Of a DNA stretch of 64,000 bases, positions 17,539 through 63,529 are shown piece by piece (within the stretch, counting starts at the first letter, position 1; each line of letters starts with the position of its first letter). The translations under genes were made by a program, and so were the position numbers. Source of the DNA: Siphonodentalium dalli (taxonomy: Eukaryota > Mollusca > Scaphopoda > Gadilida > Siphonodentaliidae); NCBI GenBank assembly GCA_032622095.1, contig CP136062.1, positions 134,247,282 to 134,311,281 of the forward strand, given 5' to 3'. The notes beneath the pieces are model-generated. The model saw nothing but the letters and a program-made list of their open reading frames with translations, was not told the origin of the DNA and did not search any database.

Positions 17539-18944
17539 TTACGCAATGTGGGCCGAGGACCAAATGCATGCCACTTCAAACAGGTGGGTTTTAAGTGTGG
17601 ATTTGAACTCATTTATGGTTTGTGGAATCCTTAAGTGATCAGGAAGTAGATTCCACAACTTTGGGCCAGCCACAGAAAAAGCGCGATCGCCGCATGTAAC
17701 CAGATCCCCAGGTTTATAGACAAGTTGATTTGCCCTGGCGGACCTGAGGGGTCTGACGGGTTGATAGCGCTGAATGAGATCCGACAAGTACGATGGTGCC
17801 AGATTATTTAAACACTTATAAGTGAAAAGCAAGACCTTAAAATGGATCCTCTGCTCAACGGGAAGCCAGTGTAATTTGGCTAAAATTGGAGTGATATTAT
17901 CAAATTTCTTTGTTTTGGTAACAATCCTAGCAGCACAGTTTTGTACAAGCTGAAGTTTCCGAATAAGGTATGTGTTGCAACCAAATAAAAGTGAGTTACA
18001 GTAGTCTATACGGCTTGTGGTAAATGCATGAACGAGTTGTTTGGCCGTCTCTTCGGCGACCACATTTCGCACCCTGCTGATATTTCTCAGGTGACAATAT
18101 GCCAATCTGCAAACTTGCATTACATGCACCTCCGCAGATAGATTGTCATCCATCATATACCCCAGGTTGCGGACCATAGTCGACTTAGAGACTGCACTAT
18201 CTCCAAGCACAATATCGTGGGTAGTTGCTTTCTGCAACTGATGCGGTAACCCGATATATATCAGTTCAGTTTTGTCAGGATTGAACTTAAGGAAATTATC
18301 AGTCATCCAGATTTTAATATCAGATACACAGTGCTCTAGGGATTCTCTGGCTGGAATCTCACAACCAGGGTTGAAATGAACGTAGAGTTGGGAATCATCC
18401 GCGTAAAAGTGAAAATTCAGTCCATGATGACGGATTATGTCCCCCAGCGGTAGGACGTAGATCACATAGAGCATGGGTCCAAGCACAGACCCCTGTGGCA
18501 CACCGTACTTAAGTGCAAAAACATCCGAGTGAACGTTGTTCACTGTGACACTCAATGTACGGCCGTTCAGATATGACCTAAACCAATCTAAGGCTACACC
18601 AGTCACACCGAGTCTGTTTTCAAGTCTCTCCAATAGCACAGCGTGGTCGATGGTGTCGAAGGCGGCACTGAGGTCCAGTAACACCAAGCATGACACTTCC
18701 CTTTGATCCATTGACATAAGCAAGTCGTTTTGGACCCGAAGAAGTGCAGTCTCAGTGCTGCTATTTGGACGATAGGCAGATTGAAACACTTCCGACAAGC
18801 CAGTGGACGACAAGTATTCGCGGAGTTGTTTGGAAACAACCCTCTCTATCAGCTTTGAAATAAAAGAGAGGTTTGAAACCGGTCGGTAGTTATACTTAGG
18901 ACCTCGACATCAAGCCCTGGTTTCTTCAGTAGCGGCGTTACTAA
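17539..18944 (-). pseudogene. LINE reverse transcriptase, C-terminal portion
   Basis: An open frame of 424 residues (17539-18813) is preceded by further homologous sequence up to 18944 in a different frame. Visible motifs: SAAFDTIDH (palm motif A), YGVPQGSVLGPMLY (motif B), FHFYADDSQLYVHF with catalytic YADD, then QNCAARIVTKT and LHWLPVEQRIHFKVLLFTYK, typical of CR1/L2/Rex-type LINEs. One frameshift separates LVTPLLKKPG from YRPVSNLSFISKLIER near 18890. Confidence 0.85.
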
Positions 18945-20483: not shown

Positions 20484-21163
20484 TAAGGCATGTTTCATGG
20501 TGGATGGGAAAATGCCACTATCCAAAGAACTGTTTACAATATTCATCAACACGGGTGCTCGTGCTGACTTACATGTCTTCAATAACTTTGTTGGTATAAT
20601 GTCGAGAGGGCACTGTTTTGATGGAGATTTCGATATAATTTCTGACAGCTGATCAGATGTGAGTGGCTAAGCTTGAAACACGTCAGTTTTTTCAGTCCCC
20701 TTGATGAACCACTGGTCTGAAGAAATTCCCAGCTGAGTGTTCCATTGTTGCTAACCATATTGCATCGGATGTTCTCAATTTTGTTTACAAAGAACTTCGC
20801 AAATATATTGGCAAGATCGACCGATGACGTATACTGAGGGAGTGGCGAGGACTTGTTTTTGTGAAGTACGTAGTTTATCATGTCAATAACATCAGATAGA
20901 ACTTTAGGCCGTTTTGAGTTATCGCTCACGAGGTCAGCAAAATATTGCCGCTTGGCCTCGATGATAAGTTTATTGACACAATTTCGTTGTGTCACGAACA
21001 ACTCCCTGTGAATCTCCAGTTTTGAGGAACGCCATTGCAGTTCGAGATTTCTACGACGCACTTTCTCTAATCGGAGGTCGTCATTAAACCATGGAGATGA
21101 TTTACGGTTCACCATGGTTTTAGTTTGCGAAGGTGCAAAACTGTCAACCAACTCCTGGGCCAC
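20484..21163 (-). pseudogene. LINE ORF, N-terminal portion before the insertion
   Basis: It encodes the linker before the reverse transcriptase: SSPWFNDDLRLEKVRRRNLE, then DLANIFAKFFVNKIENIR, and after a frameshift SPSKQCPLDIIPTKLLKTCK and GIFPSTMKHA. The last residues continue across the Harbinger-like insertion into the downstream portion. Confidence 0.75.
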
Positions 21164-21829
21164 AGAATTGAAGTTTTTAACCAGCGCGTCGACTGAAAGA
21201 TCAAATTAAAATCCAAGATGGCTGCTGACGGCTATGTTTTCCAATGAAATTCAAAAATATTTGATAGTTGCCAAAATCCATATACCATATTTGACAAAAA
21301 TCATTAAATGCATTGATTAATCCGTCGATAATGAATATGGTCAGATCAAAGAATTTGACACATTTACCAAAGCGACAAAGGGGTTTGATCGTACATACTA
21401 TGGAACTTCCGTGTGGATGTTTGATCCATACTACCCTCAGAGTCCAAATAAGCGTATAGTGTGGAATACTAAGTAAGAGTACAGAATGGACAATTCTGCT
21501 GAACCCAAAAAGAGTAAAGGGTGGAATAACAGTACAGGATGGCAACTTCCAACATGGAAGCAAGTCAGTTGGAAATGCTATATACCATCAATCATATACA
21601 TGTATATTTCTCATTGCTCTGTTGTTTGTTATAGGAGTTACCAGACAGACTTCCAGCACTATGTTATCTTTTCTTGACCTGAGTGATGGCTTAATTTCTG
21701 ATAGGCATGCGGTATAGCCATGCAGCCTGATGATCCCAACTTTAAATAAACATACAAACCCAAATAAGCACCATGCATACAGGTCAGTTTACAAATTATT
21801 TAAAAATCTATGACATATATTTAAAGGTC

Positions 21830-25700: not shown

Positions 25701-28700
25701 AGGATAAATTACCATCGGTGCCCGAGATATCGCCAAGACGTCTGAAACAGTCAAATGCATCGGCCGGTTAAGCGTTAACGTGATCTAACGTTATGAACTC
25801 TAACGACGTCATAGAAGTTACGCATTGTTTTTATCCTGATGGAAGATAGTACCACTTCTTCTTGATAATCGAGGCAGATAACTAAAACGGATACATACGC
25901 ATTATATATCGTTGGAAAGAGGAAACACGAAAGATTCTCACAGTGTCATTATTATGACTGGCATTTTATTATTCGCGCTGTTTCGAATCGATTTGTAAGC
26001 ACCGAACTCAAATGAAAGTCCCGTAACACAGCGTAAAAACAGATTTGACCGCGGCACGTGAAAAGTTGACATCGGATCTGAAAATTGATAGGCCCATGCC
26101 ACCCCCCGGCCGAAAATACCCCCACATACCAAGTTTCATCGAAATCGGCTCGGTCGTTTTCGAGTCCATCGCGATCACACACACACACACACAGACACAC
26201 ACACAGATCTTCCAAAAATATATAATAGACTAGCCGATGAGCCCGACGTTGTCCGGGCTATTCAAAAACCAAATTTCAAGTCGATAGCTCTACCCAGCCC
26301 GACGTTGTCCGGGCTATTCAAAAACCAAATTTCAAGTCGATAGCTCTACCCGTTTCCGAGATCTGGTCTGCGCATGCGCGAAGATGGCGTCGCACGGGCT
26401 CGGCGACCCGATAAAATTCCTATCCGGGGCAAGATACATTCACATACCAAATTTCAAGTCGATAATTGCTCCACCCGTTTCCGAGATCTCGTCTGCGCAT
26501 GCGCGAAGCTGGCGTCGCACGGGCTCGGCGACCCGATAAAATTCGTATCCGGGGCAAGATACATTCACATAGCAAATTTCAAGTCGATAGCTCCACCGTT
26601 TCCGAGATCTCGTCTGCGCATGCGCGAAGCGGTCGCCGCACGGGCTCGCCAATACGACAACGTCCACCGCCTGGTCAAACTACACACACGTACCAAGTTT
26701 CGTCCCGATCGGTCGAGAATCGTAGATTTGTATAAATGACAGACAAACATACAGACAGACAGACAAACAAACAGAGGTCTTCAAAATATATATGAGACTA
26801 GCCGATGAGCCCGACGTTGTCCGGGCTATTCAAAAACCAATTTTCAAGTCGATAGCTCTACCCAGCCCGACGTTGTCCGGGCTATTCAAAAACCAAATTT
26901 CAAGTCGATAGCTGTACCCGTTTCCTAGATCTGGTCTGCGCATGCGCGAAGCTGGCGTCGCACGGGCTCGGCGACCCGAAAATATTCGTATCCGGGGCAA
27001 GATACATTCACATACCAAATTTCAAGTCGATAGCTCCACCCGTTTCCGAGATCTGGTCTGCGCATGCGCGAAGCTGGCGTCGCACGGACTCGGCGACCCG
27101 ATAAAATTCGTATCCGGGGCAAGATACATTCACATAGCAAATTTCAAGTCGATAGCTCCACCCGTTTCCGAGATCTCGTCTGCGCATGCGCGAAGCTGGT
27201 GTCGCACGGGCTCGGCGACCCGATAAAATTCGTATCCGGGGCAAGATACATTCACATAGCAAATTTCAAGTCGATAGCTCCGCCCGTTTCCGAGATCTCG
27301 TCTGCGCATGCGCGAAGCGGGCGCCGCACGGGCTCGCCAATACGACAACGTTCACCGCCTGGTCAAACTACACACACGTACCAAGTTTCGTCCCGATCGG
27401 TCGAGAATCGTAGATTTGTATAAATGACAGACAGACAGACAGACAGACAAACAAACAAACAGAGGTCTTCAAAAATATATATGAGACTAGCTGGTGGGCC
27501 CGACTTCGTCCGGGCTATTCGTCCGGGCTATTTTTGGATTTCTTTGCCATAAACCTGACTATATGATCGTATAATTATATATGAGCAAGGACACGGTCGC
27601 ATGCGAAATTGGACCCGATTTGACCTTGAATTGAACATTTTGAAGGTCAACGTCAGGTCGGGGTAACGATTTGACCCGTCCAAAACACTCCCCGGACAAA
27701 AGTACCTAGGTATCAAATTTCGTCGAAATCCGTCCGTTTTAATTACCCGATTTGACCTTGAATTGACCATTTTGAAGGTCAATGTCAGGTCGGGGTCACG
27801 ATTTGACCCGTCCAAAACACTCCCCGGACAAAATTATCCCTAGGTATCAAATTTCGTCGAAATCCGTCTGGCAGTTTTCCCGGCCATTGCTGATAAACAG
27901 ACAGACAAACAGAAGTCCCAAAATATATATTAGACTAGAAGGTGACCCGACTTCGTCCGGGCTTTGACCTGAATTGACCATTTTGAAGGTCAAGGTCAGT
28001 TGGGGTAACGATTTGACCCGTCCAAAACACTGCCCGGACAAAAGTTCCTGACAAAACTACCCGTCGAAATCCATCCTGTTTTACCCGATTTGACCTTGAA
28101 TTGATCATTTTGAAGGTCAAGGTTAGGTCGGGGACACGACTCGACCCGTCCAAAACACCCAGTGGACAAAAGTAACCCTATGTATCAAATTTCGTCGAAA
28201 TCCCATCAAAATTCGCGATTTGACCTTGAATTGACCCGATTTCAAGGTCAAGGTCACGTCGCACGGGCAAATGAATAGGCTTATGAGACTCCCCACACGA
28301 AAGTATCCCCACATACCATGTTTCATCGAAATCCTGTGATATTCGGCCGTTTGACCTTGAATTGACCCGATTTCAAGGTCAAGGTCACGTCGCACGGGTA
28401 AATTAGTAGGCATATGTCACTCCCCGGCCGAAAATAACCCCACATACCGAGTTTCATCGAAATCGGCTTGGCCGTTTTCGAGTCCATCGATTACAGACAC
28501 ACACACAGACAGATCTTCCAAAATATATAATAGACTAGAAGGTGACCCGACTTCGTCCGGGCTTTGACCTTGAATTGTCCATTTTGAAGGTCAAGGTCAA
28601 GTGGGGTCACGATTTGACCAGTCCAAAACACTGCCCAGACAAAGGTACCCGACAAACGTGCCCGTCGAAATCCATCCTGTTTAACACGATTTGACCTTGA

Positions 28701-31700
28701 ATTGATTATTTTGAAGGTCGGGGTCACGACTCGACCCGTCCAAAACACTCAGTGGACAAAAGAAACCCCACGCATAAAATTTCGTCGAAATCCCATCAAA
28801 ATTGGCGATATGACCTTCAATTGACCCGATTTCAAGGTCAAGGTCACGTCGCACGGGCAAATGGATATGTTTGTGAGACTCCCCATACGAAAGTACCCCC
28901 ACATACCAAGTTTCATCGAAATCCCGTAATATTCGGGCGTTTGACCTTGAAATGACCCGATTTCAGGTCAAGGTCACGTCGCACGGGGAAATTAATAGGT
29001 TTATGCCACTCCCCGGCCGAAGATACCCCCACATACCAAGTTTCATCGAAATCCCGTGATATTCGGGCGTTTGACCTTGAAATTACCCGATTTCAAGTTC
29101 AAGGTCACGTCGCAAGGGCAAATTAATAGGCCTATGCCCGTTCCCGGCCGAAAATACCCCCACATACAAAGTTTCATCGAAATCGGGTCGGCCGTTTTCG
29201 AGTTCATCGCGAACACACAGACACACAGACAGATCTTCCAAAATATGTAATAGACTAGAAGGTGACCCGACTTCGTCCGGGCTATTCAAAAACCAAATTT
29301 CAAGTCGATTGCTCCACCCGTTTCCGAGATCTGGTCTGCGCATGCGCGAAGCTGGCGTCGCACGGGCTCGGCGACCCGATAAAATTCGTATCCGGGGCAA
29401 GATACATTCACATACCAAATTTCAAGTCGATAGCTCCACCCGTTTCCGAGATCTCGTCTGCGCATGCGCGAAGCGGTCGCCGCACGGGCTCGCCAATACG
29501 ACAACGTCCACCGCCTGGTCAAACTACACACACGTACCAAGTTTCGTCCCGATCGGTCGAGAATCGTAGATTTGTATAAATGACAGACAAACATACAGAT
29601 AGCTCCACCCGTTTCCGAGATATATAGCCCAATGTCATTTGCGGATACCTCGGCCGGTGATGAGTTAACGCGACATCGGCCGGTTAAGAGTTAACGCGAT
29701 CACGTCACGATATGTTGATGGCGTAATATATTTACGCAATGATTTTCGATGAGCGAAGCATGATCCTGCGTTCTTCCCGATAATTAAGGTAGAAACTTTA
29801 AACGTACACCGGCGTGTGATACATCATTGGAAAGATGAAGCGCCACAGATTCTAACCGTGCAAATTATACGACTAGCAATTTATTATTCGCGCTATATCG
29901 AATCGATTTGTGAGCACCGAACTGAAATATATTAGCGCAAAACGGCGTAAAAACAGATTTGACCTCGGCACGTGAAAAGTTGACCTCGGATCTGAAAATC
30001 AATAGGCCTATGTTAACCCCCGGCCGAAAATACCCCCACGTACCAAGTTTCATCGAAATCGGCTGGGCCATTTTCGAGTCCATCGATTACACACACACAC
30101 AGACAGATACACACACAGATCTTTCAAAATATATAATAGACTAGCCGATGAGCCCGACGTTGTCCGGGCTATTAAAAAACCAAATTTCAAGTCGATAGCT
30201 CTCGGCGACCCGATAAAATTCGTATCCGGGGCAAGATACATTCACATACCAAATTTCAAGTCGATAGCTCCACCCGTTTCCGAGATCTGGTCTGCGCATG
30301 CGCGAAGCTTGCGTCGCACGGGCTCGGCGACCCGATAAAATTCGTATCCGGGGCCACCCGGGCAAGATACATTCACATAGCAAATTTCAAGTCGATAGCT
30401 CCACCCGTTTCCGAGATCTCGTCTGCCCATGCGCTGCGCGGGCGTCGCACGGGTTCGCCAATACGACAACGACGACCGCCTGGTCAAACTACACACACGT
30501 ACCAAGTTTCGTCCCGACCGGTCGAGAATCGTAGATTTGTATAAATGACAGACAGACAGAGGTCTTCAAAATATATTATAGACTAGCCGATGAGCCCGAC
30601 GTTGTCCGGGCTATTCAAAAAACAAATTTCAAGTCGAAAGCTCCACCCGCTTCCGAGATCTGGTCTGAAAACCAAATTTCAAGTCGATAGCTCTACCCGT
30701 TTCCGATATCTGGTCTGCGCATGCGCGAAGCTGGCGTCGCACGGGCTCGGCGACCCGATAAAATTCGTATCCGGGGCAAGATACATTCACATACCAAATT
30801 TCAAGTCGATAGCTCCGCCCGTTTCCGAGATCTCGTCTGCGCATGCGCGAAGCTGGCGTCGCACGGGCTCGGCGACCCGATAAAATTCGTATCCGGGGCA
30901 AGATACATTCACATAGCAAATTTCAAGTCGATAGCTCCGCCCGTTTCCGAGATCTCGTCTGCGCATGCGCTGCACGGGCGTCGCACGGGCTCGCCAATAC
31001 GACAACGACCACCGCCTGGTCAAACTACACTCACGTACCAAGTTTCGTCCCGATCGGTCAAGAATTGTAGATTTGTATTAATGACAGACAGACAAACAAA
31101 CATACAGACAGAGGTCTTCAAAATATATATGAGATAATCCCCCAAAGACATATTGTGTGCTTATTATCGATGAGCCCGACGTTGTCCGGGCGACGTTGTC
31201 CGGGCTATTCAAAAACCAAATTTCAAGTCGATAGCTCCACCCGTTTCCGAGATCTAGTCTGCGCATGCGCGAAGCTGGTGTCGCACGGACTCGGCGACCC
31301 GATAAAATTCGTATCCGGGGCAAGATAGATTCACATACCAAATTTCAAGTCGATAGCTCCACCCGTTGCCGAGATCTCGTCTGCGCATGCGCGAAGCTGG
31401 CGTCGCACGGGCTCGGCGACCCGATAAAATTCGCATCCGGGGCAAGATACATTCACATACCGTATATCAAGTCGATAGCTCCACCCGTTTCCGAGATCTC
31501 GTCTGCGCATGCGCGAAGCGGGCGCCGCACGGGCTCGCCAATACGACAACGTTCACCGCCTGGTCAAACTACACACACGTACCAAGTTTCGTCCCGATCG
31601 GTCGAGAATCGTAGATTTGTATAAATGACAGACAGACAAACAAACAAACAAACATACATACAGACAGAGGTCTTCAAAATATATATGAGATAATCCCCCA

Positions 31701-38981: not shown

Positions 38982-39039
38982 ATGGATAGGAGAGAGAGCA
39001 TTCTACCAAACTTTAATGTTGATGTTAATGTGTCACAAG
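38982..39039 (+). CDS. ALPK1: ALPK1 homologue, first coding exon
   Basis: ATG at 38982, 19 nt after an acceptor AG. It encodes MDRRESILPNFNVDVNVSQ plus one base; donor AAG|GTGAGC. The next exon completes GAT (Asp), so the phase agrees. It is short, hence less certain than the others. Confidence 0.68.
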
Positions 39040-42000
39040 GTGAGCTGAGCACATATCTAGTTCTGAATATGCTCTGTGACTTGCCAAAATATTTGGCAAA
39101 CAAGTACTCAATTTCACAGTGGTCGCTTAACCCTTCCATGTCTGAAGCTTCCTGAAATTTTGCAAAAACCCTGTGTCAATTAATGCATTCTCCTATATAT
39201 GCGAGTCTCCCATAGGGAGCCTTCGGATATAAGAGAATGCATTGACCTAACAATATTTACCTTGACATTGTAAGCCAGTGCATTCTCTTGTATATGCAAG
39301 GCTCCCTATGGGAGACTCACATATATAAGAGAATGCGTGACACAGGATATTGAATGCTACACCAGCACAGCTCCCACCATGAAAGGTTAAAACATGCATG
39401 TCACGAAGGTGAAAATTAGGAAAGTTAGTACCTAGTCATTTACAACAGGTAGTTAATCTGATTTGTATTTGAGACAGGTAGGGGAACTGTGTCTGATGAT
39501 GATGTTTATACAACTAGTCACCTTTCTGTTGAGGTCCCTGTGTGTAAGTTGATATACCTTATCTTTAACCCTTTCATGGTGGGAGCTGCGCTGGTGCAGC
39601 ATTGAAGACCCTGTGTCAGTGCATTCTCTTATATATGTGAGTCTGCCATAGGGAGCCTCACATATATAAGAGAATGCACTGGCTTACAAGGTCAAGGTAA
39701 ATATTGTTAAGCCAATGTATTCTCTTATATATGCGAGGCTCCCTATGGCAGACTCACATATATAAGAGAATGCATTGGCACAGGGTTTTCACAAAAAATT
39801 CAGGAAGCTCCAGTCATGAGAGGGTTAATTATATTGTGAGGGTGTTTGGTTTATTGTTTTATGATAATCCACCAGAGGAAGGATGAGAATATACTAAACC
39901 TAACAATTAGCTCCTGCTGGAATGTATTTATTTGTGGTTATGTGAATTTCGCCCAACATGTAGATGCATTTCAATTAAATTCAACGAAGATCAATCATCT
40001 TCATTATCTGAAATGACAAGTTCTGTTTGTTTAATTTATAATGTGTGTGTAAATTTCTAAATCAACGAAAGTCTTTAATTCATTAATGCCAAACCCCTAG
40101 CAAATTATATAGCCTGGCTGCCAGCCCCCATGAGCGATGTTATGACATATTATTATATTAGCATCAATCAGATACCATTTTTGAGTCATCTTCTGGCTGA
40201 TGGATGATGATTTCTAATGGCAAGTTCACCACACCTGTTGGTTTCATGGATATAAACTGATGGACGCTCATGTCTGCTGTAGACATACATTTGTGCTTTA
40301 ATATTTTAATGAGTTATTGCTAACTCTATGTCAAAATAAACTTGGTCGATGCCTTCATCTGTTGACATTGAGGCCCGTCTGAATATTGTCATCAAATTGT
40401 CCTGTTTGGACGATGTGATAATTATGTGATACTGCAGACTGTAACCACATCGTTGCCATAAAGCAAATATATTTTTAATTATAAATTTCCAATTTAATCA
40501 ATTAGCTAATTATTTCACTGTAATTGGTATCATTTTTTATCATAATGAATAGCACAAAAAGGGGGAAAGGAATAAAGTGAAAATATAACAACTTTGGTGA
40601 ACGTTATAATGCCATCACCTAGAGAGTTAAAATAGCCATTTAAACCAGTTGTTTAAACTAATGGGAATAAATGTTCCATAAAGCATGATGAATTTTGGTC
40701 CAACATCATTTGTCAACTTCTAAAAGAATTTGGCAAAAAAAAAATTCATTGGGCAAAATAATTGGCAAATGTGAATTGTGAGTCAGCGTGGACCCTGTTC
40801 TAGTTGTGTATTACCAATATTCACTTATCCATTATGTAAACTCATTGGTTGTTCATGATATGCCAAACAAACCTGGATCACATCAAAGCTTCTAATATAA
40901 AAAAGCTATAGTACTAGCTGAGTTGAAGGAATATCTCAACAGCTTTTTCGAAACTCATCAAGCTTCGTTCACAATGATAGCAGCTAGTGAATATTTTACC
41001 AACCAATGAATATGAATCATTCTGCTCTTGTATTATATGTTCTCTGTCTGTCTTCTGCTTTTATTACCTAATCACCCCTCCAATATGAGTCCAAATGAAT
41101 ATTCCAATGTATACTTTTATAACTGAATGGGAGCATTTGGATATTTATTGTAAACTTCTGATATATAATAACAAATAAGAAGATTGTGTGTAATTGTATT
41201 GTTGTAAATTGATTCTTTGCAACCAGAATACATCTTTATTTGTTTCTATTTAGATGTGCTAGCAGAGATTTATGGCCATGACATTGATTCAGCTGTGCAG
41301 AATCCATTGCGATGTTTGGAGGCATGGTTCGCTGTCCTGCCAGATAACATCCAAGAACTAGTTGTAAATGCCGAGGCACAGATGTGGCCATTCCTGCCCA
41401 ATGATGTCAGCCACAACTGGATTTTCCAGAAACATTCTAAGTTTACTGACATATCACACATTGAAATTCTGCTGGTAAGTAATTATCCAATCTCTTATTT
41501 AGAGGGACTTGAATGAAAAAATATCATAACAGTTTATAAACCATCATCACTATGAAGAACATGGAAATATATATAGATTTGTGTCTTATTTTTTATAGCT
41601 CTCTAATTATGAGATATCACATGTTAAAGATGGATTATCTCTTTAAATAATAAATTTTAAATAGTTTCGTGGTTGGAAAATAATTGATATGAACTGAAGA
41701 CCCCTGTCCGGAAAAGCTTCTATCAATTAATATTGATTTTATTTCGAATATTAAATCGGGACCGTGTATGTGCCTATTTTTAGAACAGACCATTCGGATG
41801 ATATAGAGCACTGGGCTGTTCCCATCATGATGGCTGCGCACCGAAATCAAAATATGCCAGATTGATTATGTGTATTGTGTTGTTCCACATATATAAGCGA
41901 TAATGAGTATAATTAACGTTTATTTGTGACAAAATTGTACAATAAAATTTCTGGTCTCTGTTAACAGTAACCACTATTGTTCGTTAGCCAAACAACTACA

Positions 42001-45000
42001 CCTTTTTAGACTAGAAAATATTCTAAATAAAATTAATATTAATCGATAGAAGCATTTCTGGACAGGAGTCTTTGATTCAGATCTAATATTTTATACCCCG
42101 GTAACTATATAAAACATGTTTACAAAGAGATAATCCACCTTTAAAGCCATTGTTCGGTTTGTTATGTCAAAAATACTGTTATTAAAGTGCCTGCCATTTT
42201 ATCAACAAAAAACTTGGCAAATTCTGATAAAATCATGAATGTTTATATAACAAAAGATCAGAGAAATGAATAATATTCCAGAAAATGTAGATTTTCAGCA
42301 AAACATTTGATTTACCATGTCAATTTGTGATGTTTGTTGATAAAGTGACTTGCACTATGCACTGTAACATTAATGTTTACATAACAATAGTTTCAACATG
42401 TAAAGTCTCGTCACCAGAGAGTTGTCAGTATTAAAAATAAGAACAAATTTAAGTCCATATACAGTAATGCCATAAATAATCAGAGAGCTTTCCGATGAAT
42501 GGCAACAAGCCATATTTCCGACAAAATCCTGAAAAGTTACCCATAATTCTGCTGTGGTTAAGGAGTCGATTATTTAGGGCATTACTGTATTTCTCCATTT
42601 TCTTCGTATAGTGATGATGGTTGTACAAACTTTTATGATTTTTCACATTTGCCCATTGCGATTGCCATGTCACTTTAATTCCTGACTAGATTCTTTCATT
42701 CAGTTCTAAAACGAATAAATTCAATTTGGAATGGTCCAAATTTCATTTGTATAAAGATCATCAGACCATATAGGTGGAGAGAATGCCCTATTCATCCCCA
42801 TTCATTCATTTTAGGAATGTTCGGATAATTAATAAGTTGAACGATTATTTAATATCCAATATTTAATTGGCATAATATCTTTTGTTGACAGAGATGTCTT
42901 GACATGGCAATACAAGCTAAAGAATTTGAAAAAGCTGCAGCCTTGGCATTTGTCATCGACCGATTCATGTACAGATATGGTGGATCTTCAGTTCTGCTCA
43001 ACATTGTTGATAAAATTTCTCAACTGGCTCCTAATGTTGTCATAGCACCTCAAGTTATCATCAGAAAGGCGAGAGTAATGAAAGATAATGGAAATCTACA
43101 TGGCGCGATGAAAGTACTTGACCAGATGATTGATCGAGCAGGTATTAAACAACTTATGAATAGTAAATAACTTGTCTGCCCATTACAACACATTGAAATT
43201 TGACAATACATTTTGTACATTGTACTTTGTCATACTTTGGGTAATCTTGCCTGTGAATCTTCTACATTTGCATAAAAATTCAGTTGACGGTAACCAAATT
43301 GTTGTTAAAACCAGATAGTGAGTTTGTATTAATTTTATATTTTCACTTCTGTCAATGAAATTGAGAAAACACTAATTTTTTAAACTTTTGCCATGACCTT
43401 GTTTTTACTCAAAACTGTAGTTTTATATAAATAATGCATCCCGGCCAACTATGCCTAAACAGTGGTCCGCAAAGGAAAGTAGTTCACCTGTCGCTCATGG
43501 ACAATACTTTCTCTCTTAAAATTCAACTCCAAACCCTGCATTATCTATTGAATATCACATTATATATCATATCAACCTACCGGGGAGAGCTTTCCGATGA
43601 ATGGCAACAAGCCATATTTCCGACTAAATCCTGAAAAGTTACCCATAATTCTGCTGTGGTTAAAGAGTCGATTAATTAGGGCATTACTGTACATTGCCTG
43701 CTGGTTCTCTAATGGTTTTGAAGAAGAAGGTTGTGCTGTTTTTCGATTTTGGAGAGGGACTTATTTTGACAATTCGAGAGTCTATCGGACTTAATGAGCT
43801 TATACCGGTACATTTTTTTTCAGAAGGCAAATGGGATTACAAGAATGAGAACCAGTATCTAAATGTTGCTACAGTGTGTATACAAATCAAAGGCCACATC
43901 TATCATAATCTTGGTAAGTATAAAGTTTGTGTAGAAAAGAGATGTAATTATTGGAGTACCAGTATTAATTTAGAGATCATATTATCAGACTTGGCACATG
44001 GAAAGCTGGCAAAGTGATAATTACAAATTCCATGATTCATTTTATTCAACTTGCTAGTTCTTCATTGCCATATTATTGTCATCAAATTACAGCTGTTAAG
44101 TCAAATGTCGGTAACTTGAAAACCCCACTTAATTTGAAGTCATTGTCTGGTCATAGCTGATTCTGTGTGAAAAGTCAATAGAATAAACATGGTTAAGTCG
44201 AAGGACGATAAATCAAAATTCCTGTTTCAGGGAAACAAAATTTAGTCCCAGCCAGCTTATAATTTCATAACACTAATTTAACTATACATTGTTTGTTGAA
44301 CTTATCATCTGAACATTTCAATGAATATAAATCCTTCTGGTCTTGTATTATCTTTTTTTTCTGTCTGTCTTCTTCTTATATATCCTGAACACACCAATCA
44401 ATAACAGATTATTCCAATATCCACCGTTGTGTGGGAGAATCCATTTTGTATAGATGATACCCTGATGTGATTGCAGTGTATAAACACATTTGGCTCAGAT
44501 CACAGACATATAAATCGCAAACCGACTTTTATGTGTTTGTGATTGGCACAAATGATTTCATATTGTGTAATTATTATGTAAGATAATGTCATCCCAGTGA
44601 AATGGGACGACCTGAAAATGAGTTGGAAATATTATTAAATATCGGGAAGTGTTGATGTCATTAATTTTGCTGTTGTACTAACAACATTGTAATTCCTACA
44701 TTTATTATCACTTCTGTGCCAAATTTTAAAATGCTATAGAAATGAAGTGGATGTAACTATTTAGGAAATTAATGTAGTTTGTGTGCATTTTTGGAGTGAT
44801 AATGCGTTGTCACGGTGACCATTGGGCACATGTGTGAAGCAGTTTACACCAAATTGCTGTAACGGCCACAGTGCATTATCCCTCAATAAACCACACCCAA
44901 ACTACCATTTTCGAAGTAGAATTTGCTGATAATTTTCTTTTCCGGAAGATAAATTGAATATAATATTTGATAGAATTTTATGAAACAGGTTATATGGTTT

Positions 45001-48000
45001 TCATATGAAAAAGTCCAGTATGTGGATTAATTACATGATAATACAGGTCAAGTTCAAATTTGGGTCTCATCCGACTATTTCTGACACAGATATGACCTTT
45101 TTCATTTCAGACCTTTTGCCATCGAGGAGGAAGTTTTTTAGTAGCAGAAATAGTTTCTTCATGCCAGAAATTTTGACTTCTTTGTTCTTAAAAAAGGCAA
45201 TGACCCAAAAAGCCAACAGTCCAAAAATCCACCTCTTTTTATTCTGGTGTCTAATCAAATATGTTAACAATATTGACAGTTGAAAGGTACGGTTGGCCTT
45301 GGCAGTGGGTATCCTGTGAAAATATTTCCACCCGTCAAAAACCGCCACAAACAGAAAGAACATAAAAATGTAGACAGACTTTATCCGTATACAAATAAGA
45401 AATATCGCATAAACAGTATGTTATTGTCATATTTTTTACCATTGCTATGTAAACAAAAGCATAAAAAGTTACTTTTCTGGTGTTTGTTTATATTATGATG
45501 GTAAACATAAAGAGCGTTCTTTGTGGGTGAATTCCTGATATAGAACGAATAAAGAGCGTTTATGCCATTTGTGTGTGATTAGTCAGTAGCATTTTGCTGT
45601 CCTCTGTAACCCAATCAGGCTCTTGCTTAGGTAAAATATAGTAAATCTTTATGATAACATGCTGTTTACGCAATGGTCATGGTATATATGAACGAAACTG
45701 TATGCGTTTTAATTATTTTTTTGGTTACAGTGATTGGAACAAATATGAATATTTTCGACAATTAAGGCCTCACGTGCCTTTGAAAGCAAAGTTAGATTCA
45801 AGGATTGTTCCCAGAATCAAATTTTTCATTTCTAAAAGGTCACTGGTCAAATAAAGCCACCTTATTCGGGGGGACATGCGGCCTAGCAGCCTTTTATTTA
45901 TATAACTTGTTCCATATTTATTTCCACAATATCAGCTTAAATAATATTTACAATATGGAGAAATCTTATACCATGCAGCACATTAAGATATCCCAATAAT
46001 CTACCTCTAATATACAATCGATCAATTTAATCTATGGTTGCACGTCGTTTAAAAAATATGCCCAATTATTCTACCAACTGCATTTAGGTCAACAATATGT
46101 GATGAGCAACGAACAGGATTTAGTGTAAAAAAACACAGGCTATCTTTTTATTCAGTTTAATTTATTCAACTATTTCTATTTTCACATTTTTCAGGGTTAT
46201 GGAAGGAAGCTATCGGTCCACTTGTTCAAACAGTTCATGGCTTCAATCAGCTCAAAGATGACAAGGGAACTTCAAGCTCCTTAAGTTTACTGTCACGGTG
46301 CCTCAGTAAACTCAACAATGAGGAGTATCAGCAACTCAAGCGTGTATATAGCTTCATGTACAACAGCCCCTTCTATGAAGCATATTATTGTGGAATGGTT
46401 GCATTGTACTACGCTCCAATTGATAACCTGTTTATGGCAAAACATCAGGTGATTTATATTAAATTCACATACATTGATGCTACTCAAGGGCCTTAACATT
46501 GGGTACATGTGGACGATTATAAACCTATAGATTTTTAAAATCTGTTATTTTTTACCACCAGGAATATTTGGCGGCTGGCAAAAATCAGCTGACTTCTTAC
46601 AGAAATAGTACAGGCATGCATGCCGTTATGGGATGTCACTGCTCGATATACCATCAGCGCATCGGTGGTGATAGAAAATTAGTTCAGTATTAAAAGATGA
46701 TGAAAAGTGTCGCCATCAACAAGAATATGGAATATTGTGATAGTTGATGTGCGGATACATGCATTATACTTATTTATGAATCGGTAATCATGTTTTATCC
46801 ATGCATATATTCATGTTATATGGCACCATGCTGGTTACAAATGGAGTTTACATTCGTGATAACAGTTGTTGTGGAATTCCAATTTGAATTAGGAATCACC
46901 ATATATGGAAGTTGTAAATCACACTCGCTGACCTCAAAACTGCCAAGAAACTGTTATTGTAGGATTTTTACGGCAAATATGATATGATGATTGGTATTGT
47001 TGTGAGTATTTTTAATGGTAATAAACTAATTTGGATAACTAAATTTGCTTTTGGTGAAATTCCGTTGTTGTAGTAACTGGATGATAGAGGGACCATCAAA
47101 TCAGATTATGTACCTTTAACATGTCAGTTTGTGAGTGGAAATTCAGATTATGAAGCAGTGAATTATTATTTCTCTATCTGTTGTAGCTTGTTGCTGATGA
47201 GAATCTCCTGATGTACACTGTCAATCTTGGTTCACAACAAGAGAATTTGCTGCATACTGTTCTGCATGATCTGAAAATCAGTTTGCGAGCGCACAAGTCT
47301 ATTGATATCCTACAGGCATCAGAACAGTTCTATGAGTTCATCAGAGCGGTGTTTGTTGCAAGTCTTATTCTACATTTATCACCGTATGCAATGGATGGTA
47401 AACTTAGCTCATACTTTGAAGATGTTAGCCTATTTTTATACCAAGAGTATTGTAGAAGACATCTAGCCGGAGAACATCGTGGGAGAACAGTGAAGGCAAT
47501 GAATTCTGCTTTGACGTTGTTAGGAATTGAAAGTCTGGCCGGAAGTGAGCTCGTTGAAGAGAGAACATCGGGACAACCTTCAGAGAAATCTACAACTGAA
47601 GAGGGTCCATCCGATGAGGAAGCCAACAAAATTGAGCCTGATGAGTCACATGACACAGATTTAAAGTCCAAAGATACGTCATCCTGGGTTGATGGGATAA
47701 AGGTTGAGAAAATGGTACGCCATCTTGCTGGAACAGTTCCAGTTAGGAGAGCAGTTCAGGTTGATAAAAGCAGACAAGACAAAGCCATTACTGTAGCAGG
47801 AGATAGCGTGGATACTATTTGGAAGGAACTGAGTCACCATGGATGCAAGTATGGTAGGAAGTTTGTCGGTTTGCCTGCTGATCCAGAAGAATATCTTGCT
47901 AAATTTGATTTGAGACAGATCAGGAATATTGAGTCCATAGATGCATCTGTAGAGATTCAGCCAGTTGTGAATGTTAATGCCACAATACTTTCGACAACAG

Positions 48001-51000
48001 AAAGTGGGAACATACAGTCATCTACAACAAAACTGTCATCATTGTCTTCAGATTTGGCTTCAACAATCTCGTCACCTGCGGAAGACTCCAGTCTGGCATC
48101 AACAGAACCAAGTCCATCAGGTTCCGACAGTCAGTTGAATTCATCTAATTCCAGCAGTGCTTTAGGCGATCTCTTTCTGCCAATGAACAAGTTTTATTCC
48201 AATAGTGTTGCTATCCTCAATTTTGTTGACTCCGCTGGACACTATATCCCAGTATCAAGGCAGACCAACACAGGAATAATTGCACACCCTGCTATCATCA
48301 AAGAACAAACTCCTGTTGTTCGGAAAATCTCCAGTAGCAGAGAGAGCGGTGACATCTCTTCAGTTAGTTCATCCACTGATGTCAGTTCAACAAAATCATC
48401 TATTCTTGATTTGCCAGACTCAGCGGAAGAATTATGCCAGACATTTGAGAGTCTTGGGATTGGTTCAGGAACATCATCCACTGATCCTGCCGAATTCTTA
48501 AGCAGATGGCAACCCTCTGCTAAACGTACGAAGGACGGATACACAGTACAACGTAAATATATATTTTGACTTGATTTTTGGATTTTCCGTGCAAAGTTTT
48601 TCATTTTGTGGATTCAACAAAATAGAATACGTACAGTTCAATTATATAATGCTTGTAGACTTCATGATGCAACCCAATTGAATTGATTGATTTTTTGTGG
48701 CATGGCTCACATGATCAGGAGATTTATTCCTTTGTAATTATGCAAGAAAACATAGAGCAATTAAAAAGATTCAACTGAAAAATTGAATTTAAGAGATATA
48801 TTTCTAATGAAGAAGTAATTCAAAATGGATTTAGAAAAATAGTTATTGCATAGAAATCCGTAGTTGGCACTCTACATCCCTACATTTGTTGCCGAAGATG
48901 CCTTAGATGATGCTGCCATGAAAATAACTTGATTAACTTGCATTGGACGTCACCTAGAGAAAAGCAAACTATAGAACAGTTTTCATTGTGATTTGTTCTC
49001 TGGTGTTTATAAACTTAAAATAAATGTTGATCCCAACTATTTCAGGATCAAACTTGTGGACATATAATCCAGAAAATGGACAGTGGAATGGGCAGAGTAC
49101 CCTGGCTATGATTGGTCCAGAGATCCCTGTGGAGAAAAAAGGAAATTGTCGTAAGGTTTATGAAGTGAAGTTCCTTCATCAAGATGAACCACTGGGAAAG
49201 TTAGTATTTTTATACCCCCAATTTTTGAGAAAAAAAATGGATGGTATACCGGATTGACTTTGTCAGTCAGTCAGTCCATCTTGACATATATCTCAGCCAT
49301 GGGTTATTTGATTTGGATGGAATATGGGATAACTGTTCAACACTGGGAGTGCTTTCAAAAGAGCTACCCGTAGGGCACAATGGTGTTTTTCACATGTTTG
49401 TCCCACTGCATCTCGATCTCTTCAGCCATGTGTTATAATATCTATCTCAATGAAATTTGGTATGGATGTTCACAGTCACAAGGGTTTTCAATGAAGTGTT
49501 ATTGATGTTCGCATTTCACCATTATGCCTTGGATTATTTTATATATGTGTTCCGTCCTGCTCATATTTTGATTTGCCATGGCAAGGATGTATGCCAACAC
49601 CCGAGGTGCAACCTCTTGTTCCATCGGATTCCATCCATCTGAGACCAAATATGTAAGGCTACAATAAATTAATGTGATGTGGAACACTCCGCTTGGGCGA
49701 CTCGGTGGGAATAGAGAATAAACCTGCTCAAGCTGGTTCTTCTCATAATATTTTGTATCCAAATTCATTAATTGGCAGCAGACAACGCCATTCTTATATA
49801 TGGATCATATTCAGTGACCCTCATTGGCAGAATCATTGTCGTTTGTTTATTGGCTTATTTTTATATATAAATTCGTCCCAAATTAAGGAGTAAATATTTA
49901 TAATTACACGTACTTCAAACGTTGTGTTTTCTGAAGTGGTATTATCTAATTTATTGAAATATTCAACAATATTAAAGATGATCTATCTCTTTGTAAACAT
50001 GTGTTATAGTTACCAGGGTATAAATATTATATATGAATCAAAGACCCCTGTCCCGAAATGCTTCTATCGATTAATATTGATTATATTTCAAATATTTTCT
50101 GGTCTAAAAATGCGTGGTTGTTTAGCTAATGAATAATATTTGTTACTGTTAACAGAGACCAGAAATTTTATTGTGTAATTGTGTCACAAATAAACATTAA
50201 TTAGACTCATTATCGCTTATAACTATGGAATAAAACAATACAGACAATCAATCTGGGACATTTGATGTTCGGAACGTAGCTATGGGAACACTCTAATGAT
50301 CTCTATCACTACATGGTATTGCCTGAATGGTCCATTCTAAAAATAGAACAACAAAGTGTCCATTTAAAATCATCTCATTTAATAATAAAATATTTGAAAT
50401 AAAATCAATATTAATTGATCAAAGCATTTCCGGATATGGGGGTCTTCAATTCATATTTATTATTTTATATCCACGCAACTATTTCAAAATTGTTATATGA
50501 AATGATAATCCACCTTTAATTTATTGCCACATTCCTCCTGTTAGCATAGATTCTAGGTACTCACTTGTCTGTTTGAGTTACTAAAATAAGCACACAATAT
50601 GTATTTAACCATTTTCAGGTATGTGGGTAAGAGATACATATTAGAAAGATCACCACAGCAGTATCTCCAAGACACTATATGCCAGATGCTTGCTCGATAC
50701 TATGTCACAAGCTTCAACCAGAAGTTGCAGACCTTGCAAGGCAACCAGTCTACATTCCAAGTATACTATCTCCCAGTCTACCATCTACAGATGCTGTCAG
50801 AAACTGGTAACCTGGAATACTGTGTCAACGTGGAGCCTTTTCTCAAAGGGAAATTTGAGAAAATTACAAATAATCTCAACCATCGAAATGATACTATGAC
50901 TATGGTAAAGGGAGATGAGTTGAGAGACATTTCAACCGCTATATCGCATTATTCCTATTGCATGACACAAGGTCATTTGATGCTGGTTGATATCCAGGGT

Positions 51001-51207
51001 TTTATGCCATTGGATGGGACTGGTATTGTGTATTTAACAGACCCTCAGTTCCACACTGTATCTTCATCTACAGTCTCCCTGGATAAGTTCTGCACTGCAG
51101 ATCATGGGAAGAATGGAATGGATTCATTCTGGATGAACGTTCATCCCTCCTGTAATAAATTCTGTGGCCTTTTGAGTTTGAAAAGACCAGAATCACAAGA
51201 CCGTTAA
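38982..51207 (+). CDS. ALPK1: Alpha-kinase 1 (ALPK1) homologue, 8 coding exons, 993 aa
   Basis: Exons: 38982-39039, 41254-41474, 42892-43141, 43824-43913, 46195-46448, 47187-48552, 49046-49199, 50619-51207. All introns are GT-AG, phases agree at all seven junctions, and 2982 nt give 993 residues. In mammals ALPK1 is a cytosolic receptor for bacterial ADP-heptose: the N-terminal domain binds the sugar, the C-terminal alpha-kinase phosphorylates TIFA, and NF-kB signalling follows. Here residues 20-470 match the sensor domain (AQMWPFLP, FVIDRFMY, APQVIIRKAR, CIQIKG, KDDKGTSSSLS). A Ser/Thr/Glu-rich linker spans about 470-740, and the kinase spans about 748-985 with YVGK (Lys-802), VEPFLKG, VDIQG, YLTDPQFH and a HPSCNKFC zinc cluster. 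Human ALPK1 is 1244 residues; the shorter linker explains the difference. A non-coding 5' exon probably exists upstream, since exon 1 of this model is preceded by an acceptor (TTTTTCAG at 38963). Introns hold several MITEs. Confidence 0.93.
39131..39386. mobile_element. piggyBac-type hairpin MITE (copy 3), ALPK1 intron 1
   Basis: Flanked by TTAA (39127-39130, 39387-39390), 256 bp, with ends CCCTTCCATG and CATGAAAGG. It contains two near-perfect hairpins with GCGAGTCTCCCATAGGGAGC-type loops. Same length as, and inverted relative to, copy 4. Confidence 0.82.
39569..39824. mobile_element. piggyBac-type hairpin MITE (copy 4), ALPK1 intron 1
   Basis: Flanked by TTAA (39565-39568, 39825-39828), 256 bp, with ends CCCTTTCATGGTGGGAGCT and AGCTCCAGTCATGAGAGGG. 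Both internal palindromes are nearly intact. Confidence 0.85.
41254..41474 (+). CDS. ALPK1: ALPK1 homologue, exon 2 (sensor domain)
   Basis: Acceptor TTCTATTTAG, donor CTG|GTAAGT. It encodes VLAEIYGHDIDSAVQNPLRC through DISHIEILL, including AQMWPFLP, whose Phe-66 aligns with human Phe-61. Confidence 0.9.
41628..42140. mobile_element. TTAA-flanked MITE, AGATGGATTATCTCTTT ends (copy 1)
   Basis: TTAA at 41624-41627 and 42141-42144. Inverted ends AGATGGATTATCTCTTT and AAAGAGATAATCCACCT. Subterminal 'gaagacccctgtccggaaaagcttct' inverted blocks. It lies in ALPK1 intron 2. Confidence 0.8.
42460..42590. mobile_element. Single-arm mariner-like MITE (copy 2)
   Basis: A short left end ACAGTAATGCC followed directly by one full arm, ending GGCATTACTGTAT. 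Related to 5434-5648, with most of one arm deleted. It lies in ALPK1 intron 2. Confidence 0.6.
42892..43141 (+). CDS. ALPK1: ALPK1 homologue, exon 3 (ligand-pocket arginines)
   Basis: Acceptor TTGTTGACAG, donor GCAG|GTATTA. It encodes FVIDRFMYRYG and APQVIIRKARV. Arg-117, Arg-151 and Arg-154 align with human Arg-116, Arg-150 and Arg-153. Confidence 0.93.
43585..43691. mobile_element. Single-arm mariner-like MITE (copy 3)
   Basis: One arm only (GAGAGCTTTCCGATGAATGG to GCATTACTGTAC). It lies in ALPK1 intron 3, 130 bp before exon 4. Confidence 0.55.
43824..43913 (+). CDS. ALPK1: ALPK1 homologue, exon 4
   Basis: Acceptor TTTTTTTTCAG, donor CTTG|GTAAGT. It encodes GKWDYKNENQYLNVATVCIQ then IKGHIYHNL, matching the human WLYRNESDK...SVCIQIRGQI segment. 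Confidence 0.92.
45282..45642. repeat. 360-bp interspersed repeat (copy 1)
   Basis: Its reverse complement occurs at 61600-61955, including 'cataaagagcgttctttgt' and 'actaatcacacacaaatggca'. It lies in ALPK1 intron 4. No coding capacity; class unknown. Confidence 0.6.
46195..46448 (+). CDS. ALPK1: ALPK1 homologue, exon 5
   Basis: Acceptor CATTTTTCAG, donor CAG|GTGATT. It encodes LWKEAIGPLVQTVHGFNQLK, then DDKGTSSSLS; Asp-228 and Lys-230 align with human Asp-231 and Lys-233. Confidence 0.92.
47187..48552 (+). CDS. ALPK1: ALPK1 homologue, large exon 6 (end of sensor, linker)
   Basis: Acceptor CTGTTGTAG, donor CAAC|GTAAAT. It encodes 455 residues: the last helices of the sensor (HKSIDILQASEQFYEFIRAV), an acidic and Ser-rich linker, and a conserved-looking island HHGCKYGRKFVGLPADPEEY about residues 510-530. 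The linker is of low complexity and poorly conserved in the family. Confidence 0.92.
49046..49199 (+). CDS. ALPK1: ALPK1 homologue, exon 7 (start of kinase)
   Basis: Acceptor CTATTTCAG, donor GGAAA|GTTAGT. It encodes NLWTYNPENGQWNGQSTLAM and the glycine-rich-loop region up to HQDEPLGK. Confidence 0.9.
49225..49460. repeat. Repeat fragment with (CAGT)n and 'agccatgggttatttgat'
   Basis: A diverged, opposite-strand relative of 10830-11115, starting with 'gtcagtcagtcagtcc'. It lies just after ALPK1 exon 7. Confidence 0.4.
49655..49900. repeat. Diverged copy of the 485-bp repeat seen at 62560-63529
   Basis: Shares 'gtgatgtggaacactccg', 'caacgccattcttatata' and 'gtaaatatttataatt' blocks in the same order. 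It lies in ALPK1 intron 7. Confidence 0.45.
49976..50515. mobile_element. TTAA-flanked MITE (copy 2), ALPK1 intron 7
   Basis: TTAA at 49972-49975 and 50516-50519. Ends AGATGATCTATCTCTTT and GATAATCCACCT. It shares interior with 41628-42140 and 58667-59186. Confidence 0.72.
50619..51207 (+). CDS. ALPK1: ALPK1 homologue, exon 8 (kinase catalytic core)
   Basis: Acceptor CATTTTCAG. It encodes YVGKRYILERSPQQYLQDTI through LSLKRPESQDR and TAA. Lys-802 aligns with human Lys-1067, the lysine whose loss inactivates the human enzyme. Asp-922, Asp-939, His-943, His-973, Cys-976 and Cys-980 are at the expected catalytic and zinc positions. Confidence 0.95.
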
Positions 51208-62490: not shown

Positions 62491-62559
62491 ATAGCAAAAT
62501 GGAAGAAGTACATCTTTGGAAAGATGTGGTGGCCCTAAAAAGGAAAGTTGTTTGGTGAT

Positions 62560-63529
62560 CTTGAAATGCAGTTTTTCTGAACAGTCTTCCTTGATTAAAG
62601 TGATGTGAAACACTCCGGCAGACAACGGGCAGAGTGATCAAATAGAAATTAAGAATAATCTTTCTCAAAGTAGTTATTTGTTACGAATATTAATCCAAAT
62701 GGATGATACACAACGTCATTCTTATATATTAGTTAAATGCAATGACTCTCGATGGCGAAATCATTTTTGTTTAATTATAGCCGATAGTTGCGCCCCGAAT
62801 CGAGATGTAAATATTTACAATTTGGAGTAGTTCAGACGATGTTCTCTATGAAGTGGGGTGGTAGATTTTTTTGGAAATTTTCAGTGATGTTAGTAGAATG
62901 ATAACATTCCCCAGGTTGGCAAAGTGCCTGAGCACTAACTTATCAATTTCTCGCACCCGAAAAAGTCCATAACAAGTCCATAATATGTCTTTAAGCATAT
63001 ATATAAATCTCCGAAAACCAAAATTCTAAAGCATTAAACGATTTCTTGAAATGCAGTTTTTCTGAACAGTCTTCCTTGATTAAAGTGATGTGAAACACTC
63101 CGGCAGACACCGGGCAGAGTGATCAAATAGAAATTAAGAATAATCTTTCTCAAAGTAGTTATTCGTTACGAATATTAATCCAAATGGATGATACACAACG
63201 TCATTCTTATATATTAGTTAAATGCAATGACTCTCGATGGCGAAATCATTTTTGTTTAATTATAGCCGATAGTTGCGCCCCGAATCGAGATGTAAATATT
63301 TACAATTTGGAGTAGTTCAGACGATGTTCTCTATGAAGTGGTGTGGCAGATTTTTTTGGAAATTTTCAGTGATGTTAGTAGAATGATAACATTCCCCAGG
63401 TTGGCAAAGTGCCTGAGCACTAACTTATCAATTTCTCGCACCCGAAAAAGTCCATAACAAGTCCATAATATGTCTTTAAGCATATATATAAATCTCCGAA
63501 AACAAAAATTCTAAAGCATTAAACGATTT
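62560..63529. repeat. Near-identical 485-bp tandem duplication
   Basis: 62560-63044 and 63045-63529 align base for base with only a few substitutions (for example 'acaacggg' against 'acaccggg'). The low divergence shows a recent event. The unit contains no gene. A much older relative lies in ALPK1 intron 7 at 49655-49900. Confidence 0.92.

Follow-up and report, generated by a model that had tools for sequence, protein, structure and literature searches.

Does this locus encode the sensor ALPK1, and if so, could the protein still recognize ADP-heptose in an animal outside the vertebrates? ALPK1 works in the cytosol, where it detects a core sugar of Gram-negative bacteria. We addressed the question in a stretch of 64,000 nucleotides (contig CP136062.1; hereafter "the window" is this whole stretch), in which eight exons at 38982-51207 on the + strand join into one frame for a protein of 993 amino acids. 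As judged from its sequence, this protein is probably an ALPK1 orthologue. We consider it rather likely that it is an ALPK1 family member in the full sense, one in which heptose binding would be joined to a kinase switch.

Family assignment of the 993-residue protein

When the protein was compared with all PDB chains, at E-values up to 1, 13 distinct sequences were matched. The kinase half was matched best by two ALPK1 kinase chains (1.8e-40, and 2.2e-39 for 8zd3_B), and the N-terminal domain was matched by ALPK1 chains only (1.7e-30 for 5z2c_A and 1.9e-30 for a second chain). Thus, the ALPK1 N-terminal domain and the alpha-kinase are joined in one spliced frame. The next-best kinase was eEF2K (2.4e-7; 2.6e-7 for an eEF2K fusion), which places ALPK1 ahead of any other kinase by more than 30 orders of magnitude in E-value; the remaining matches, to MHCK-A chains, a putative protein kinase (4kuj), and TRPM7 (1ia9), covered the kinase part only. 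For scale, the two ALPK1 kinase chains matched in the PDB, which we take to be those of human and another mammal, share 207/223 identical positions.

Pfam recognized Alpha_kinase (PF02816) as the sole family, over residues 778-980 (E 1.1e-34; 120.6 bits against a cut-off of 21.3). Counted on the alignments, the spacer between VDIQG and TDP is 12 residues and the zinc motif is HxxCxxxC, both of the ALPK1 type. A search of IMG/VR for relatives gave 66 pattern matches, none of them a real relative. A preliminary description of this DNA had proposed an ALPK1 homologue with its kinase core and most of its pocket kept, and this is well supported by the PDB comparison, by Pfam, and by the pocket alignments described below.

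Gene model

The joined exons come to 2982 nt including the stop codon, with no stop inside the frame, and all seven introns (493 to 2281 nt) are GT-AG; the single eight-exon frame of the preliminary description therefore stands. The exons are as follows (E-values by tblastn with human ALPK1, except for exon 5).

Exon 1: 38982..39039, + strand; residues 1-19; start ATG with A at -3 and G at +4
Exon 2: 41254..41474, + strand; residues 20-93; Phe-66 at 41391-41393; E 0.094 alone
Exon 3: 42892..43141, + strand; residues 94-176; Arg-117, Arg-151, and Arg-154; E 1.1e-11
Exon 4: 43824..43913, + strand; residues 177-206; E 4.3e-5
Exon 5: 46195..46448, + strand; residues 207-291; Asp-228, Lys-230, Ser-234, Tyr-251, and Phe-286; E 0.068 alone, by phmmer
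Exon 6: 47187..48552, + strand; residues 292-746; remainder of the N-terminal domain and a Ser-rich linker
Exon 7: 49046..49199, + strand; residues 747-797; start of the kinase domain; E 8.7e-7 with the human ALPK1 kinase
Exon 8: 50619..51207, + strand; residues 798-993; Lys-802 at 50629-50631, Asp-922, Gln-924, and Asp-939; zinc ligands His-908, His-973, Cys-976, and Cys-980; E 8e-31

Four of the eight exons (3, 4, 7, and 8) were found by tblastn, whereas for exons 1, 5, and 6 there was no match up to an E-value of 1. The frame of exon 6 stays open for 455 codons, for which the chance is about 2e-14 given its place, random bases, and the same G+C. Exon 1 is the least certain of the eight because it has no homology to human ALPK1; its assignment rests on the start context and the donor site. 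An acceptor-like site immediately upstream of it suggests an additional exon in the 5′ untranslated region. The lack of homology in exon 1 would also fit a decaying or misjoined gene that makes no working ALPK1, but we give this very little credence, given 993 stop-free codons, seven of seven GT-AG introns, and the presence of every catalytic and zinc residue that we inspected.

Some introns hold repeats of their own. Intron 1 contains what is likely a small mobile element, seen as an inverted-repeat cluster of a short element (39182-39791; arms of up to 110 nt, 93% complementary), and introns 2 and 7 carry related inverted copies of one element (41624-42114 and 49972-50519; 262-nt arms, 85% complementary).

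The ADP-heptose pocket

The human ALPK1 sequence used for alignment agrees with 8zd3_A over residues 1-456, and the register was tested by posteriors from a pair hidden Markov model under three parameter sets. Human F61, R116, R150, R153, D231, and K233 align to F66, R117, R151, R154, D228, and K230, and T237 aligns to S234, so that the residue is changed but the hydroxyl is retained. Posteriors for these positions were 0.94-1.00, except for D228 (0.80-0.87). The correspondences of the preliminary description are thus in register, and Gln-67 is, as it had said, not kept. In addition, human Tyr254 aligns to Y251 (posterior, 0.83-0.95) and human F295, which we assume to be a ligand contact, to F286 (0.73-0.86).

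The pocket is kept better than its surroundings. By simple hypergeometric tests, six of the eight pocket residues named in the preliminary description are identical, against 73/212 in the aligned core (P 0.021); for the same residue types in the core, 14/59 are kept (P 0.0014). Only 6 of the 27 human Arg and Lys residues in the core are unchanged, and all four of those in the pocket are among them (P 8.5e-4). Among Asp and Glu residues, 5/19 are unchanged, D231 being one of these.

Passages in published work connect several of these residues with function. R150 is reported to be needed for the response of ALPK1 to ADP-heptose (PMC11614533), as are R153 and K233 (PMC10723048), and the Thr237 hydroxyl is described as a gatekeeper in parts of both papers. 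The equivalents of R150, R153, and K233 are all present here, as R151, R154, and K230. We take the remaining pocket positions to be ligand contacts on general grounds or from the preliminary description.

Kinase core and zinc site

The kinase domain contains Lys-802 (in YVGK), Asp-922, Gln-924, and Asp-939, to which we ascribe catalytic roles by assumption; Lys-802 is presumably human Lys1067, a numbering obtained by count and in part from the preliminary description. By alignment, the zinc ligands are His-908 (in AISHYSY), His-973, Cys-976, and Cys-980. The preliminary description had Lys-802 and the last three of these ligands in place, but its first ligand, His-943, sits in DPQFH, the next motif, and was dropped in favor of His-908. 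The latter is preferred because it corresponds in the alignment to TRPM7 H1751, the place of which in the TRPM7 sequence we assume. H1751 is given as the invariant zinc histidine of alpha-kinases in a passage of PMC5318989. Val-827 matches human Val1092, the spiradenoma site, as counted on the alignment. Our literature search found no paper for the names of the human ALPK1 zinc ligands or for Phe295; six residue names looked for in PMC9484401 do not occur there, and PMC12420824 added nothing useful.

A proposed mechanism and the evidence against it

From the pocket and kinase residues, it is a fair inference that the protein senses ADP-heptose. We envision that the N-terminal domain would bind a bacterial nucleotide-heptose, either ADP-heptose or a close relative, in such a way that Lys-230 and both arginines of the VIIRKAR motif touch the diphosphate of the nucleotide, and the loop of Asp-228 and Ser-234 touches the heptose. 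Binding would then switch on the C-terminal alpha-kinase, which would phosphorylate a threonine of a partner protein and so start an antibacterial signal.

Several results weigh against this proposal. Gln67 is not kept, its alignment to S72 having a posterior of 0.45-0.62. In a weak register (best posterior, 0.25-0.32), human Ser277 aligns to either Tyr-267 or Glu-268 rather than to a serine. The model of exon 3 counts partly for the proposal and partly against it. Exon 3, modeled alone and without an alignment (predicted local distance difference test score [pLDDT], 67.6), had as its top six Foldseek matches chains of 5z2c, the ADP-heptose complex (E 7.5e-3 to 1.9e-2; template modeling score by query, 0.68-0.70), followed, from E 0.27 upward, by other helical-repeat proteins. 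These matches are weak, none being below E 1e-3, and they depend on sequence similarity. The predicted fold offers mild support for the identity of the ALPK1 N-terminal domain, and not more, because 5z2c was absent from the 50 rows shown by VIA-align for the same model, which were mostly helical-repeat proteins. Exon 5 contributes the second half of the pocket; its single-sequence model had a pLDDT of 53.9 and one meaningless match. Finally, human TIFA, the protein that ALPK1 phosphorylates at Thr9, gave chance matches only when compared with the window (best E, 0.78 by phmmer and 2.9 by tblastn).

If positions close to the pocket that govern specificity in vertebrates are changed here, the same fold and pocket might instead serve to sense a different nucleotide sugar, such as one of the animal's own. 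Parts of PMC11614533 report that Ser277 is strongly conserved in vertebrate ALPK1, that human nucleotide sugars can activate the protein once Phe takes its place, and that a bulky residue there widens the ligand range. With Ser277 seemingly not a serine in our protein, a different or wider range of ligands is therefore possible, and the loss of Gln67 points the same way. However, the register at Ser277 is poor, and the pocket retains its four basic residues as well as a hydroxyl at position 237; we regard another ligand as unlikely, if worth keeping in mind.

One can also imagine that the ancestral task of the protein lay at the cilium or centrosome, with the pocket retained for an internal metabolite. 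According to passages of PMC6752478, human ALPK1 localizes to centrioles and to the ciliary base, and cells of patients carrying T237M form fewer cilia; that TIFA was not seen in the window would fit as well. The basic pocket residues are kept above background, which speaks against this reading, but an internal phosphate-bearing ligand would demand the same. On balance, such an ancestral role strikes us as improbable, and we retain the sensing of ADP-heptose as our preferred explanation.

How old is heptose sensing by ALPK1?

The host is likely an animal without adaptive immunity, given the divergence of the gene and the style of the repeats; the repeats of the window resemble those of molluscs and their kin. 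A vertebrate host, such as a jawless fish, in which the gene would widen the distribution of ALPK1 solely inside its published range, is unlikely: 85/226 kinase positions are identical to the human chain, against the 207/223 shared by the two ALPK1 kinase chains of the PDB, although a jawless fish would be compatible with this divergence and with the repeats. Automatic annotations of mollusc genomes include the name "alpha-protein kinase 1-like." Among the matches listed by our literature search (titles and the beginnings of abstracts, subscription papers aside), no published description of an invertebrate ALPK1 appeared, and a TIFA review (PMC13283784) contains none of the words invertebrate, evolution, species, ortholog, and zebrafish. 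Passages elsewhere are explicit: a 2025 paper states that both TIFA and ALPK1 are absent from invertebrate lineages (PMC12457700), a commentary, after Tang et al., that ALPK1 arose in vertebrates (PMC11461863), and a paper on metazoan TRPM proteins calls ALPK1, 2, and 3 vertebrate kinases (PMC13143021).

The first two of these statements would be contradicted by an invertebrate ALPK1 whose pocket is conserved. Should the host, as is likely, be an invertebrate, the alarm has a greater age than the literature gives it, and both statements need revision. Whether ALPK1-type heptose sensing pre-dates vertebrates and is still active in an invertebrate, perhaps with broader ligands and with no TIFA, seems to us evenly balanced. 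If this is true, ALPK1 did not arise in vertebrates after the loss of heptose synthesis, as has been published, and the gene has been lost or overlooked elsewhere. With an invertebrate ALPK1 that has its pocket, a single recombinant protein would be enough to test the origin of the alarm directly.

Surroundings of the gene

Thirty frames of the window were scanned with Pfam; the flanks have 55 listed frames of at least 62 amino acids, and 23 of these were included. One reverse transcriptase was above the cut-off and three matches were below it. No FHA domain and, besides the reverse transcriptase, no other gene was recognized in these 30 frames. Scans for tRNAs and with Rfam were empty. Other features of the window are these.

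17542-18909, - strand: frame for a reverse transcriptase of the long interspersed nuclear element (LINE) type, PF00078, E 3.3e-30
20582-21205, - strand: likely a further piece of the LINE-type reverse transcriptase, with no Pfam match
26-32 kb and 37-38 kb: tandem repeats, with arrays at 26316-31537 in units of about 122-131 bp
62559-63529: a 485-bp unit in two head-to-tail copies with 98% matches, either recently duplicated or a product of the assembly

Relatives of the reverse transcriptase were found at two loci (49% and 41%) on short contigs labeled as a Bacteroidetes and an archaeal metagenome-assembled genome; these contigs may be misbinned eukaryotic DNA, and the two loci give no useful placement of the host. 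Two repeat patterns of the window had no hit among viral contigs, and one of the two, compared also with genome contigs, had none there.

Comparison with known alpha-kinases

TRPM7 (1ia9; E 4.8e-4) and MHCK-A (3lkm; E 2.3e-6) share the alpha-kinase core and the zinc site with our protein, in matches confined to the kinase part. The same is true of the match to eEF2K (7shq; E 2.4e-7), which has the alpha-kinase fold in common but, unlike the protein described here, has a VDIQG-TDP spacer of 5 and a zinc motif of the form HxCxxxC. Human ALPK1 is 1244 amino acids long, and the linker of the 993-residue protein is shorter. Identity to human ALPK1 is 73/212 in the N-terminal core and 85/226 in the kinase; Thr237 is changed to Ser, Gln67 is lost, and Ser277 is apparently not kept. 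Still, with human ALPK1 (5z2c for the N-terminal domain with ADP-heptose; 8zd3) the protein has in common the order of its domains, most of the pocket residues, the kinase core, and the HxxCxxxC motif.

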